A DNA stretch of 42,414 bases from Candidatus Zhuqueibacterota bacterium (GTDB taxonomy: Bacteria > Electryoneota > RPQS01): assembly GCA_003818605.1 (NCBI GenBank), contig RPQS01000031.1:1-42414 (forward strand). Reading direction: 5' to 3'. The first letter of the stretch is position 1. Each line of letters starts with the position of its first letter. Below, piece by piece: positions 16,493 to 40,688 of this stretch. The position numbers were made by a program, and so were the translations under genes. Under the pieces are notes generated by a model that did not search any database, was not told the DNA's origin, and worked only from the letters and a program-made list of their open reading frames with translations.

Positions 16493-17083
16493 ATGGAAAT
16501 AGGAAGTACCGAGGAGATTAGGGTCGTTAATGAGATTTTAAAGATGCTAAACGAGCTGGAACCTGAAGCCCGTCGCCGCGTCTTGGCAACAGTGGAAACT
16601 TTCATTAAATTTGACAACTTGCAAGTGAACAGCGCACCTCCTCAATCAACAATTGCAGAACTACATGGAAGACAAACCTCGCTCCGCAGTGATGGCGATT
16701 TTTCTACAGATCGCACGATTTCAGCGAAGCAGTTTCTCTTCGACAAGAAACCACAGTCGGACGTGGAAAGAATCGCCTGCTTGGCTTATTACCTCACACA
16801 TTACCAGGACTTGCTTGAATTCCAAACACGGGATGTGAGTTTGCTGAACACCGAGGCTGCCCAACAGAAGTTTTCCAATCCCTCGGTGGCTATAAGTAAT
16901 GCGGCCCGCGCTGGTTACATTATTCCAAGTTCAAAGAGTTATTGGAGGATTAGTGCAATTGGTGAGGTTTATGTTCGTGCACTACCGGATCGTGATGCTG
17001 CAAAAGAAGCCCTCACAGATGCACCAGCCCGAAGGCAGAGAAAAAGCTCGGCTAAACGCGCAAAGAAAATGGTAAAACAATAG
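16493..17083 (+). CDS. Small winged-helix-like protein, first gene of the ParA-RelA/SpoT islet
   Basis: 196 residues. The start has AAAGGAGA four bases upstream. The N-terminal 35 residues are helical (EIRVVNEILKMLNELEPEARRR in part), followed by a low-complexity linker to about 75. A compact domain then runs from about 84 to 168: SDVERIACLAYYLTHYQDL, LLNTEAAQQKFSNPSVAI, AARAGYIIPS, YWRISAIGEVYVRALPDR. The pattern of helices followed by GYI and YWRIS strands resembles a winged helix, so it may bind DNA or protein. The tail is very basic (RRQRKSSAKRAKK), which also fits nucleic acid binding. I recognise similar domains only as uncharacterised proteins. The stop is 7 bases before the parA-like gene, so it belongs to the same transcript. 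Confidence 0.75.
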   Translation: MEIGSTEEIRVVNEILKMLNELEPEARRRVLATVETFIKFDNLQVNSAPPQSTIAELHGRQTSLRSDGDFSTDRTISAKQFLFDKKPQSDVERIACLAYYLTHYQDLLEFQTRDVSLLNTEAAQQKFSNPSVAISNAARAGYIIPSSKSYWRISAIGEVYVRALPDRDAAKEALTDAPARRQRKSSAKRAKKMVKQ

Positions 17084-17090
17084 TCTGTCA

Positions 17091-18062
17091 ATGTCCACTA
17101 TAAAAAAAATAGCTCTATTCAATCACAAAGGCGGAGTAGGTAAGACTAGCCTTTCTGTCAACATCGCCTTTGCGCTTGCAAAGCAAGGACACAGAGTCCT
17201 GCTGGTGGATTCTGATCCCCAATGCAGCCTCACAACATATTTGTCAGACGAGGCAGCAGTAAACGAATGGCTCGATGAATCTGAAACGGACAAGGGTCGT
17301 ACAATATGGTCAGCCGTTCGTCCAGTATTGAAAGGACAGGAAAATCCTCGGGATGTCACGCCGGTTGAGCGAAGAGAGAACCTGTACTTAATCCCCGGCG
17401 ATATCGCTCTTTTCGCAATCGAGGATTATCTATCGGATGCATTCGGCGAGTGCTCGAAAAGGAGATCTGAGGGTTACCAAAAAGTTACGGCGATTGGCCG
17501 AGTTGCGAGTAATGCGGCACTACAAGTGCAAGCTGAGTTTGTTCTATTTGACTCAGGACCGAACATCGGTCCACTCAACAAAGCAATCATCCTCGATTGT
17601 GACGGAATTATAATACCGGCAGCTTGCGACCAGTTTTCCTTGCGCTCCTTCTTAACACTAGGCGTCACTTTAGCTAGGTGGATCAAGGAGTGGGAGGGCT
17701 TGAGCACTCGACCACCAGAAGGGGCACCTATGTTGGGCGGTCGCCCAGAATTGATCGGGTACATTCCACAGAGATTCAAGGTATGGGGGGGGTTGCCAGC
17801 ATCAGACTATTCCATGTTCATGAGTAAGCTCGAATCAAGTTTCAGTAAAGACATAGTAGAGCTATTGCGCGGCAAATTTCCAGACATGGCCATGCGTGGC
17901 GTATCCGAATATAAGCTTGGAGAGGTTAAGGATTTTGGTCAGTCCGCGATTAGAGCTCAAAGAGAAGGGCTTCCTTGGTGGGAAGTTGGAGGTGCGGCAG
18001 CTTCCGCGTGGCCAGTATTTAATGGAATAGCCAATAGGCTCAAGGACTATTTCAATGCCTGA
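17091..18062 (+). CDS. ParA/MinD-type ATPase
   Basis: 323 residues of the ParA/SIMIBI class. The deviant Walker A is KGGVGKTS (13-20) with the signature lysine at K13, Walker A' is VLLVDSDPQCSLT (36-48), and Walker B-like FVLFDSGPNIGPLN lies near 152-165. The later stretch IPAACDQFSLRS matches the adenine/dimer region. ParA proteins form ATP-dependent dimers on DNA and position plasmids, chromosomes or complexes. No ParB gene or parS-like repeats are visible, and the gene sits between a small winged-helix-like protein and a RelA/SpoT-domain protein, overlapping the latter by 8 bases. It is therefore more likely an orphan ATPase of an accessory module than a chromosome partition protein. C-terminal residues 210-323 are longer than in minimal ParA. 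Confidence 0.9.
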   Translation: MSTIKKIALFNHKGGVGKTSLSVNIAFALAKQGHRVLLVDSDPQCSLTTYLSDEAAVNEWLDESETDKGRTIWSAVRPVLKGQENPRDVTPVERRENLYLIPGDIALFAIEDYLSDAFGECSKRRSEGYQKVTAIGRVASNAALQVQAEFVLFDSGPNIGPLNKAIILDCDGIIIPAACDQFSLRSFLTLGVTLARWIKEWEGLSTRPPEGAPMLGGRPELIGYIPQRFKVWGGLPASDYSMFMSKLESSFSKDIVELLRGKFPDMAMRGVSEYKLGEVKDFGQSAIRAQREGLPWWEVGGAAASAWPVFNGIANRLKDYFNA

Positions 18063-18801
18063 CACAAATATTCCAGAAGTGTTCAACCTTGAACAATACA
18101 TAAACGCACATCTTGCGCTATACCATGATAGCCATTCCCAGTTGACAAGCATCATGGATGACTTGGTAAATCAGATTTCAAGCTACAAGAACCTGAAGGA
18201 TCATGTTCATACAATAAAGAGCAGGATCAAATCGGAATCCAGCATAGCTGACTCACTTCGGCGCAAGTATAACAAAACGAAAGTTCCCATACCAAGTGAT
18301 GAACTCTTTCGAGGGATAAATGACATCATTGGTATGCGGATTTTGCACTTGCAGAGAGCCCAGATAGAACAGATAAACAAAGGCCTGCTCGAGTGGATTG
18401 ATGCATATAATTATGAGAAATTGGAGGGTCCAATTGCCAAGGTTTACGACAACGAGACCAAAGCGTTTTTTGAAAAACTTGGGATTGACACGGAATCGAA
18501 CGCACGAATGTATACGAGCGTGCACTATGTGGTTCTAAACAATACTAAGAGCAGATATTCATTCGAGATACAAGTTCGAACACTTCTTGAAGAGGCGTGG
18601 GGAGAGGTGGATCACAAAATAAACTACCCAAATCCAACAACGAGCGTCGCGTGTTTAGGACAGATTCGGTCGCTAGCGCATTTGACAACGGGGTGCAATC
18701 GTCTGATTGATTCGATACTTCGTTCCCACGAAGAATATGCTGTTTTAACTGAATCTTTACAAAAGCGGAATACTGAAAATTCAACGCAACATACGAGATA
18801 G
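18055..18801 (+). CDS. RelA/SpoT synthetase-domain protein (stand-alone)
   Basis: 248 residues with a single RelA/SpoT nucleotidyl-pyrophosphotransferase domain. Motifs are KSRIKS (55-60), INDIIGMRI (88-96, D90), MYTSVHYVV (152-160, with the guanine-stacking tyrosine position Y153 and H157), and FEIQVRTLLEEAWGEVDHK (170-188, E171, W182, H187). All core synthetase residues seem kept, so activity is plausible, although the usual G before the tyrosine (GYRS) is M here. There is no HD hydrolase, TGS or ACT domain, so it is a small alarmone synthetase or a toxSAS-like enzyme that may instead pyrophosphorylate tRNA. A helical N-terminus (1-50) precedes the domain. ATG overlaps the ParA stop by 8 bases. 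A bidirectional terminator follows 35 bases later. Confidence 0.88.
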   Translation: MPDTNIPEVFNLEQYINAHLALYHDSHSQLTSIMDDLVNQISSYKNLKDHVHTIKSRIKSESSIADSLRRKYNKTKVPIPSDELFRGINDIIGMRILHLQRAQIEQINKGLLEWIDAYNYEKLEGPIAKVYDNETKAFFEKLGIDTESNARMYTSVHYVVLNNTKSRYSFEIQVRTLLEEAWGEVDHKINYPNPTTSVACLGQIRSLAHLTTGCNRLIDSILRSHEEYAVLTESLQKRNTENSTQHTR

Positions 18802-18835: not shown

Positions 18836-18868
18836 AAAAGCGGAACACCAAAAGATGCTCCGCTTTTT
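18836..18868. terminator. Bidirectional terminator between the islet and the cupin gene
   Basis: The stem AAAAGCGGA/TCCGCTTTT has A and T tracts on both sides, so it works in either direction. It ends the plus-strand RelA/SpoT transcript and the minus-strand cupin transcript. Confidence 0.85.
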
Positions 18869-19200: not shown

Positions 19201-19272
19201 AAATTATAGGCTATTCTTTGTATTGCGTTTAAGAGAAAAATGTCGTATATTTGGGATGTGCAATATTCATTA

Positions 19273-19300
19273 TTGCGTAACATTTATAAAAGTATATTAT
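19273..19300 (+). promoter_or_regulatory. Possible promoter of the 25-codon ORF
   Basis: TTGCGT (19273-19278) and TATTAT (19295-19300) are separated by 16 bases, 34 bases before the start codon at 19335. The region is AT-rich, so chance matches are possible. Confidence 0.45.
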
Positions 19301-19334
19301 GTGTTGAGTGGGTACATTTAACAAGGAGGGATTC

Positions 19335-19412
19335 ATGAGTGAGGTATTTATTCTCTGTCTAATATGGGCCTTGACTGATCTTGTCAAGGTATCAAAGAGA
19401 AAAGATCAGTAA
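19335..19412 (+). CDS. 25-residue membrane peptide
   Basis: A short ORF with a near-perfect SD (AAGGAGGG, four bases before ATG). The peptide starts MSEVFILCLIWALTDL and ends VKVSKRKDQ: one hydrophobic segment followed by a basic tail, as in small single-span membrane proteins oriented with the C-terminus in the cytoplasm. A possible promoter lies upstream and a strong hairpin terminator begins 20 bases after the stop, so it looks like a complete monocistronic unit. I do not recognise the peptide. It could also be a leader peptide, but no downstream gene on this strand could be controlled. The SD and terminator make it unlikely to be chance, yet translation is unproven. Confidence 0.6.
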   Translation: MSEVFILCLIWALTDLVKVSKRKDQ

Positions 19413-19431
19413 TTTTTGTTTTAATGTCGAG

Positions 19432-19467
19432 CCGCACCCCGTCAGCGATGGCGGGGTGCGGTTTATT
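19432..19467 (+). terminator. Terminator after the 25-codon ORF, shared with the aminotransferase gene
   Basis: A 10-base-pair stem CCGCACCCCG/CGGGGTGCGG (19432-19461) is followed on the plus strand by TTTATT. On the minus strand it lies about 45 bases after the aminotransferase stop and may also terminate that transcript. Confidence 0.75.
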
Positions 19468-19507
19468 AATCTGTTGCTGGATCTCTGAAACACGCATGAA
19501 CTCCGGA

Positions 19508-20695
19508 TCAAATATCGCGAAAATACTTTTCAATTCTTCCGCACGCTTCCTTGATCGTCTCATCCGAGGCTGCAAAGCTAAAACGGATAGCGCGGTCGTC
19601 CCCGAAAACCACTCCCGCCATCGTGGCCACGTATTTCTCTTCGAGCAATTGCATAGACACCTTCAGTGAACCGGGATACGGTTTCCCCGCCGCTTTCCAG
19701 ATTCCGTCAATGCGCGGAAACATATAAAAGGCACCCTCGGGCTTGGGAGCTTCCACATGCGGCCACTTGGAAACGATGGAATAAATCAGATCACGCCGCT
19801 TTTCGAATACTTTCCGCATTTCCTCACGGTCGCGTTGGTCGTTGGAAACCGCTTCAATCGTCGCGTGCTGAGCTATTGCGCTCGGCGATGAGGTCATCTG
19901 TGATTGCAGTTTGGCCGCCGCAGCCACGATTTCCTTCGGCCCGCAGCCCCAACCCAACCGCCAGCCCGTCATCGCGTACGTTTTCGACGTGCTGCTCACG
20001 TAAAGAGTGCGTTCGTACAACTCCGGAATGTGCGCGGGCGAAGCCTGCTGCCTTCCGTCATAGAGCAGATGCTCATACACTTCATCCGCTAAAACCCACG
20101 CGTTCGATTTTAAAATCACCGGAGCCAGCGCGGCGATTTCCTCTTTCGAATAAGTCGTGGACGACGGATTATTCGGCGTGACCAGCACGATCATTTTTGT
20201 TTTCGGTGTGATCGCTCTCTGCAATTGTTCGGGCGAAATCAGATACCGGTTTTTCGGTTCGGTTTCTAAAATAACGGGTACACCTTCAGCCAATTTGATC
20301 AATTCCGGATAAGCTAAAAAATACGGCGCGGGCAGAATCACTTCATCACCCGGATTGATCGCTGCCAATAAGAAATTCGTAATAACATGCTTGCCGCCGT
20401 TGGATACGATAATCTGATCCGGCGCATAGGACAGGTTTTGATCGCGTTCTATCTTGCTCGAAATCGCTTTGCGCAAGGCCAGCGTGCCGCGCCCTTCCGT
20501 ATAGTGCGTGATGCCGTGATCAATCGCATATTTGCCGGCTTCGCGAATCGGCGGCGGCGTGTCGAAATCCGGTTCGCCTACGGAAAGCGAAAGTACGGGC
20601 TTGCCTTCCGCTTTCAACGCGGCCGTGCGGGCGACAACTTCTAAGGTTAATGCGGATGAAATGCGAGTTGTCCGCTCAGCAGGAGAATGAATCAA
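19508..20695 (-). CDS. Pyridoxal-phosphate aminotransferase, class I (aspartate aminotransferase-like), second copy
   Basis: About 395 residues. Hallmarks are SVGEPDFDTP (38-47), the cofactor-binding SNGGKHVITN (98-107), VTPNNPSST (172-180), ADEVYEHL (203-210) and the Schiff-base lysine K238 in SSTSKTYAMTGWRLGWG. The N-terminus (AERTTRISSALTLEVVARTA) is typical of the Thermus-type aspartate/prephenate aminotransferase subgroup. I chose the TTG at 20695 because GGAGG lies five bases upstream; an in-frame GTG at 20707 would overlap that SD. It differs clearly from the pckA-linked aminotransferase at 14669-15886, so the two may use different amino acids. It stands alone with a terminator at 19432-19461. 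Confidence 0.92.
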   Translation of the reverse strand: MIHSPAERTTRISSALTLEVVARTAALKAEGKPVLSLSVGEPDFDTPPPIREAGKYAIDHGITHYTEGRGTLALRKAISSKIERDQNLSYAPDQIIVSNGGKHVITNFLLAAINPGDEVILPAPYFLAYPELIKLAEGVPVILETEPKNRYLISPEQLQRAITPKTKMIVLVTPNNPSSTTYSKEEIAALAPVILKSNAWVLADEVYEHLLYDGRQQASPAHIPELYERTLYVSSTSKTYAMTGWRLGWGCGPKEIVAAAAKLQSQMTSSPSAIAQHATIEAVSNDQRDREEMRKVFEKRRDLIYSIVSKWPHVEAPKPEGAFYMFPRIDGIWKAAGKPYPGSLKVSMQLLEEKYVATMAGVVFGDDRAIRFSFAASDETIKEACGRIEKYFRDI

Positions 20696-21653: not shown

Positions 21654-21679
21654 TCTACTCCTGATTCCCAATAGCAAGC

Positions 21680-21714
21680 AGTGGCGGCTTTTATAAGCCG
21701 CCACTTGCTTTTTC
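21680..21714 (+). terminator. Rho-independent terminator of the lipoprotein gene
   Basis: An 11-base-pair stem AGTGGCGGCTT/AAGCCGCCACT with a TTAT loop (21680-21705) is followed by TGCTTTTT, 27 bases after the stop. Confidence 0.88.
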
Positions 21715-40631: not shown

Positions 40632-40653
40632 CAGTTCTTCAAACGAAAATGTA

Positions 40654-40688
40654 AAACGGGCTTCCCCCGCCGGGAAGCCCGTTTTTTT
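40654..40688. terminator. Terminator between the OPT gene and the convergent small exported protein gene
   Basis: A 13-base-pair stem AAACGGGCTTCCC/GGGAAGCCCGTTT with loop CCGCC is followed by a run of seven Ts on the plus strand. An A-rich tract precedes it, so it can also end the convergent minus-strand gene. Confidence 0.88.

Follow-up and report, generated by a model that had tools for sequence, protein, structure and literature searches.

A candidate 25-codon transcription unit between cupin and aminotransferase genes of a Candidatus Zhuqueibacterota bacterium

The window analysed here is a stretch of 42,414 nucleotides from a Candidatus Zhuqueibacterota bacterium (contig RPQS01000031.1, assembly GCA_003818605.1). 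Between a cupin gene and an aminotransferase gene it carries a 25-codon frame with a strong Shine-Dalgarno (SD) sequence, followed by a hairpin. This is best read, tentatively and at somewhat less than even confidence, as an orphan, lineage-specific mini-transcript that possibly makes a small membrane peptide. Here, a compact + strand unit is plausible because the SD is strong, the hairpin is strand-specific and there is no other + strand gene between the RelA-like gene upstream and the hairpin. The transcript would start somewhere between approximately 19258 and 19310, its SD would direct translation of a 25-residue peptide, and the structure and tail orientation of the hairpin suggest that it is here that the transcript ends. 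Residues V4–L13 are predicted to enter the inner membrane or rest on its surface, with the KRK tail remaining cytoplasmic, as expected from the positive-inside rule, and the peptide may then act as a small regulator or a membrane-active peptide. The unit probably arose, or arrived, recently between its two neighbours. The features are collected in Table 1.

Table 1. Features in and around the 25-codon frame, in window coordinates
Feature	Position	Strand	Basis
Weak promoter-like site, TTGCGT-16-TATTAT, 8/12	19273–19300	+	motif match; absent from stricter scan
Hairpin just upstream of SD, 9 pairs, two G-U	19302–19323	+	-8.8 kcal/mol, + strand RNA only
Shine-Dalgarno AAGGAGG, then GATTC, then ATG	19323–19329	+	anti-SD tail from same-genus 16S rRNA
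25-codon ORF with stop, MSEVFILCLIWALTDLVKVSKRKDQ	19335–19412	+	ORF reading, SD scoring
Antisense promoter-like site, TTGACA-17-TATTAG, 10/12	19359–19387	-	relaxed scan; inside ORF
8-pair hairpin inside ORF, GCCTTGAC/GTCAAGGT	19368–19390	+	folding
Inverted repeat ACTGATCTTGTC/GAAAAGATCAGT, then T-rich run	19374–19410	+	sequence
Terminator-like hairpin, 16 pairs, T-rich tail	19429–19464	+	folding, strand comparison

The reading frame and its Shine-Dalgarno sequence

The frame runs from ATG 19335 to the stop codon TAA at 19410–19412, and its product is MSEVFILCLIWALTDLVKVSKRKDQ. A mechanically called ORF in the same frame starts instead at a GTG (19308) and comprises 34 aa. The SD matches over 7 nt at a spacing of 5 nt, and no other ORF scored in the window has a match of this length. 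Here, the 34 longer ORFs, some of which are surely spurious, were scored at their first start and at the best of their first eight starts, and the longest match among them is 6 nt, found in three ORFs. The 16S rRNA 3' end of the only other same-genus genome in the set, CACCTCCTT, has the canonical CCTCCTT tail, so that the match of AAGGAGG to this same-genus tail, at proper spacing, is meaningful. The organism's own 16S gene was not found in its genome, the sole near-match (on contig C184) not being a 16S gene.

To estimate how often such an arrangement arises by chance, the intergenic DNA of the window (6,077 nt in total, in pieces of 60 nt or more) was shuffled with dinucleotide counts preserved. 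AAGGAGG followed by ATG and an ORF of 15–60 aa is present in 12 of 500 shuffles, and any 6-nt SD core followed by ATG and an ORF of that size in 115 of 500. Scaled to 3.2 Mb, the first figure means that approximately two chance SD-ORFs are expected per genome. The 7-nt SD is a real signal, though not a decisive one. On the same strand, there is also a 32-codon, ATG-start ORF at 19240–19338 that has no clear SD and whose stop overlaps the start codon of the peptide (ATGA). A stop/start overlap of this kind is a typical arrangement for translational coupling.

The peptide has one hydrophobic segment, V4–L13, and a KRK tail. Its maximum 19-residue Kyte-Doolittle mean is 1.71, a value attained by 1.5% of 6,951 random short ORFs, and the hydrophobic core extends without interruption for only 10 residues, followed by T14-D15. 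The frame does not have host-like codon usage. Its codon score against the window's genes is -5.5 bits; a score this low is found in just 1.2% of 430 equally long gene pieces, and 57% of 4,031 open intergenic pieces equal or exceed it, among which the frame is therefore unremarkable. Low scores (-1.5 to -3.2 per 25 codons) are also seen for the nearby P196, ParA-like and RelA-like genes, and a foreign origin is therefore compatible with the low score of the frame.

The hairpin downstream of the frame

The hairpin starts 17 nt past the stop codon. Its folding energy is -32.1 kcal/mol (z -7.05, a stability matched by 0 of 200 shuffles), and in a scan of both strands no other intergenic hairpin of the window is as stable. 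The perfect form is found on the + strand, whereas the - strand fold has fewer pairs and only -23.1 kcal/mol. The tail is likewise asymmetric, with 5 T in 9 on the + strand and 1 T on the - strand. Between 1 and 41248, 11 intergenic hairpin-strands, this one included, have tails containing 5 T or more, and comparison of the hairpin list with the ORF-based gene list places 9 of the 10 others no more than 100 nt downstream of a same-strand gene. Since nearly all such T-tailed hairpins lie downstream of same-strand genes, a + strand transcript probably ends here. A dedicated terminator scan of the window did not list the hairpin. Two others, at 21676–21710 and 40653–40685, are near-symmetrical with T-rich tails on both strands and are apparently bidirectional terminators; the latter sits between convergent genes.

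The sole + strand candidate for such a transcript between the hairpin of the RelA-like gene (18836–18867) and 19429–19464 is the 25-codon unit. It is possible, but less likely, that the downstream hairpin terminates the RelA operon after read-through, because the RelA-like gene has this T-tailed hairpin of its own (-13.7 kcal/mol on the + strand). The reading of 19429–19464 as a repeated element was rejected, as it is present in one copy in the genome at up to 3 mismatches and in one copy in the window. A leader peptide for a downstream gene was also rejected, since the next gene, the aminotransferase gene, is convergent with the unit; the cupin gene on the other side is divergent.

Promoter-like sites and internal structure

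Upstream of the frame, the promoter-like site TTGCGT-16-TATTAT has only 3/6 in its first hexamer. A second site, TTGCGT-17-TATATT, lies at 19223–19251, and the stricter promoter scan lists neither of the two. A start approximately 7 nt past 19300 would cut the hairpin that precedes the SD, and the 5' end of the transcript is therefore uncertain. The preliminary description had proposed a complete transcription unit, in which a possible promoter is followed by an ATG with an SD at ideal spacing, 25 codons with a single hydrophobic segment, and a hairpin terminator within 20 bases. Frame, SD, hydrophobic segment and hairpin were all borne out; the promoter-like site is present, but it is weak.

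The 3' half of the frame contains two overlapping inverted repeats, that is, the internal 8-pair hairpin and the repeat that ends in a T-rich run, and the two cannot form together. An RNA element fits this arrangement slightly better than does coding sequence. As an alternative, the transcript and terminator may be real and the 25-codon frame incidental, with the hairpin-bearing RNA being a product or by-product. This small non-coding RNA shares with the mini-gene the same evidence for a + strand transcript and is, in addition, favoured by the 5' and internal hairpins and by the intergenic-like codon usage. The region 19300–19470 folds at z -5.37, mostly owing to the terminator; when the terminator hairpin is left out, z drops to -1.62, with 13 of 200 shuffles as stable, which is not unusual. 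Rfam gives a weak match to a Bacteroides sRNA (27.5 bits, where the cut-off is 81.9; E 0.02), which points the same way, but no Rfam family reaches its gathering score. Moreover, this reading makes the ideally spaced 7-nt SD a coincidence, of the kind seen in 12 of 500 shuffles. Overall, a non-coding RNA is judged somewhat unlikely.

Homologue searches and the equivalent site in relatives

The DNA from 19201 to 19480 was searched in 61 genomes and found in its own genome only (0 of 60 others). It is absent altogether from every relative searched, so that there is no counterpart in which the frame could have been lost with the SD or terminator retained. The peptide search gave the same picture: at E ≤ 0.1 in the 39 genomes of the phylum, the peptide was found in its own genome and in 0 of 38 others. 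At E ≤ 1 there were matches in 4 of 61 genomes including its own, the other three being at chance level, and at E ≤ 0.02 in 2 of 386 including its own, where approximately 8 are expected by chance. No match was found in phages and plasmids, and two viral contigs that matched the back-translated pattern were discarded as unrelated frames. In Pfam, NCBIfam and PHROGs there was no usable match and no relative of a known toxin; the matches to Pfam Dynein_AAA_lid (E 0.1 and 0.03) and PHROG 11240 (E 0.036 and 0.068) were too weak to be of use.

The matches in genome G160, from the search at E ≤ 0.02, share a TGAGCTTGTCGAAGTATC-like stretch, which we take to be a common palindromic repeat. The organism's own genome contains the motif once, and a single copy with 3 mismatches is present in 1 of 10 other genomes of the family; the reversed control also had a single match in each of two genomes. 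A REP-like repeat in the 3' half of the frame was therefore rejected, although in G008 the aminotransferase gene does have a Y1_Tnp-like gene downstream.

The orthologous aminotransferase is 86% identical in G001, 80% in G008 and 78% in G003. Past this gene, G001 has a TPR-protein ORF starting 35 nt on, G008 has the Y1_Tnp-like ORF, a GNAT gene and a cupin gene, and no clear gene was resolved directly downstream in G003. As the content between the two aminotransferase genes differs in G008, the site varies among relatives. In that genome (G008:C19:153500-159500, L031) the interval holds a TrkA-domain sodium/proton exchanger, a cupin, GNAT and the Y1_Tnp-like ORF. A scan of genome contigs with the aminotransferase gave 80 loci at 38–45% identity, which are too divergent to be informative about the site. 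Around the inserted stretch, the only direct repeats were 9-nt matches of chance size, and no cupin was found in viral contigs.

The zero conservation, together with non-coding-like codon usage and the expectation of approximately two such SD-ORFs per genome, is what would be seen if the SD-ORF were fortuitous and the adjacent hairpin belonged to the convergent aminotransferase gene or had no function. The end of this gene, at 19508, is 44 nt away from the hairpin, and the scans list no further terminator-like site for it. On its strand, however, the hairpin has fewer pairs and lacks the T tail (-23 versus -32 kcal/mol), and the hydrophobic segment would be unusual for a random ORF. Chance is considered somewhat unlikely, slightly more so than a non-coding RNA.

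The neighbouring ParA–RelA/SpoT module

Upstream, at 16493–18801, are genes for an unknown 196-aa protein (P196), a ParA-like ATPase and a small RelA/SpoT-domain protein. The same three genes in the same order are found in G008:C15 (L126; 52, 69 and 52% identity) and in G191:C1, in a genome outside the phylum (L127; 42, 40 and 37%), and neither copy is accompanied by the peptide. In G008 the cupin gene is beside the aminotransferase gene, the module is on another contig and the peptide is with neither. An IMG/VR contig (L123) has adjacent ParA-like and RelA-like genes with no P196 match seen, and PADLOC matches for the module are weak only. The module looks like a mobile alarmone-synthetase unit, possibly in defence or as a toxin-antitoxin system.

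The unit had been described as lying next to this islet, which is loosely true, as the frame is 534 nt beyond the RelA-like gene with the cupin gene in between. A link to the module did not stand up: the peptide was rejected as a component, because the module recurs without it and the cupin gene intervenes.

Antisense RNA and the type I toxin reading

A type I toxin-antitoxin pair would require a membrane toxin and an antisense RNA over the SD, which the cupin mRNA, if begun inside the frame, might provide as its 5' leader. In their general description (PMC8309996), toxins such as TisB, IbsC, ShoB and Fst have fewer than 60 residues, one hydrophobic stretch and cationic C-terminal residues, and the peptide is like them in each respect. 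With its 25 residues and a putative transmembrane helix, albeit one with a 10-residue core, it falls within the size and hydrophobicity of type I toxins. It differs from these four in having no sequence relation to them in the family libraries and in the shortness of its uninterrupted core.

RNA from the - strand site TTGACA-17-TATTAG, inside the frame, would cross the SD of the peptide. A - strand site as good as this is contained in 12% of shuffles, and the standard promoter scan lists no - strand promoter reading across the frame. Another site, TTGTTA-17-CATAAT (19324 to 19296, - strand), could serve as a cupin promoter, and RNA from it would miss the frame. An antisense RNA, which the preliminary description had proposed to look for, can therefore not be claimed. 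Rfam contains no matching antitoxin family. The suggestion that the unit makes a regulatory peptide or a type I toxin is thus unsupported, there being no homologue, no family match, intergenic-like codon usage and no convincing antisense RNA, and a type I pair is very improbable. Its more specific form, in which the cupin mRNA starts at TTGACA-17-TATTAG and this metabolic-mRNA leader is the antitoxin of a type I-like toxin or regulator in a sparsely sampled phylum, is less probable still.

Discussion

The orphan mini-transcript, possibly coding, is the reading that we prefer, with a non-coding RNA and chance not far behind it. Counted for the mini-gene are the 7-nt SD, the CCTCCTT tail, the rarity of such an SD-ORF in shuffles (12/500), the most stable hairpin with its T tail along the + strand, and hydropathy above 98.5% of random short ORFs. 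Counted against it are the lack of homologues beyond chance-level matches in the genomes searched, codon usage, approximately two chance SD-ORFs per 3.2 Mb, the weak promoter and the inverted repeats in the 3' half of the frame.

We know of no sequence relation between MSEVFILCLIWALTDLVKVSKRKDQ and YohP of E. coli. The two are alike in length (27 aa for YohP; PMC7549839) and in having one hydrophobic segment. Hydrophobic small ORFs preceded by an SD are, in the accounts of PMC5521070 and PMC11188072, a known and common kind, predicted at approximately two dozen per species (PMC5521070). The candidate resembles the unannotated intergenic small ORFs and peptide-coding small RNAs of these accounts, as it is a short hydrophobic ORF with a strong SD in a stand-alone intergenic unit. 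The difference is that the sets published there rest on conservation or ribosome data, whereas the candidate is predicted from its sequence.

The P196–ParA–RelA/SpoT module is probably more interesting than the 25-residue peptide. Type I toxin-antitoxin systems are, as PMC12390103 has it, reported from few phyla only, and a proven case here, if true, would widen that range. For now, the 25-codon unit ranks as a good, if ordinary, candidate for RNA-seq and Ribo-seq. A genuine peptide would add one more to the lineage-specific small membrane peptides, from a phylum for which the set searched contains 39 genomes.
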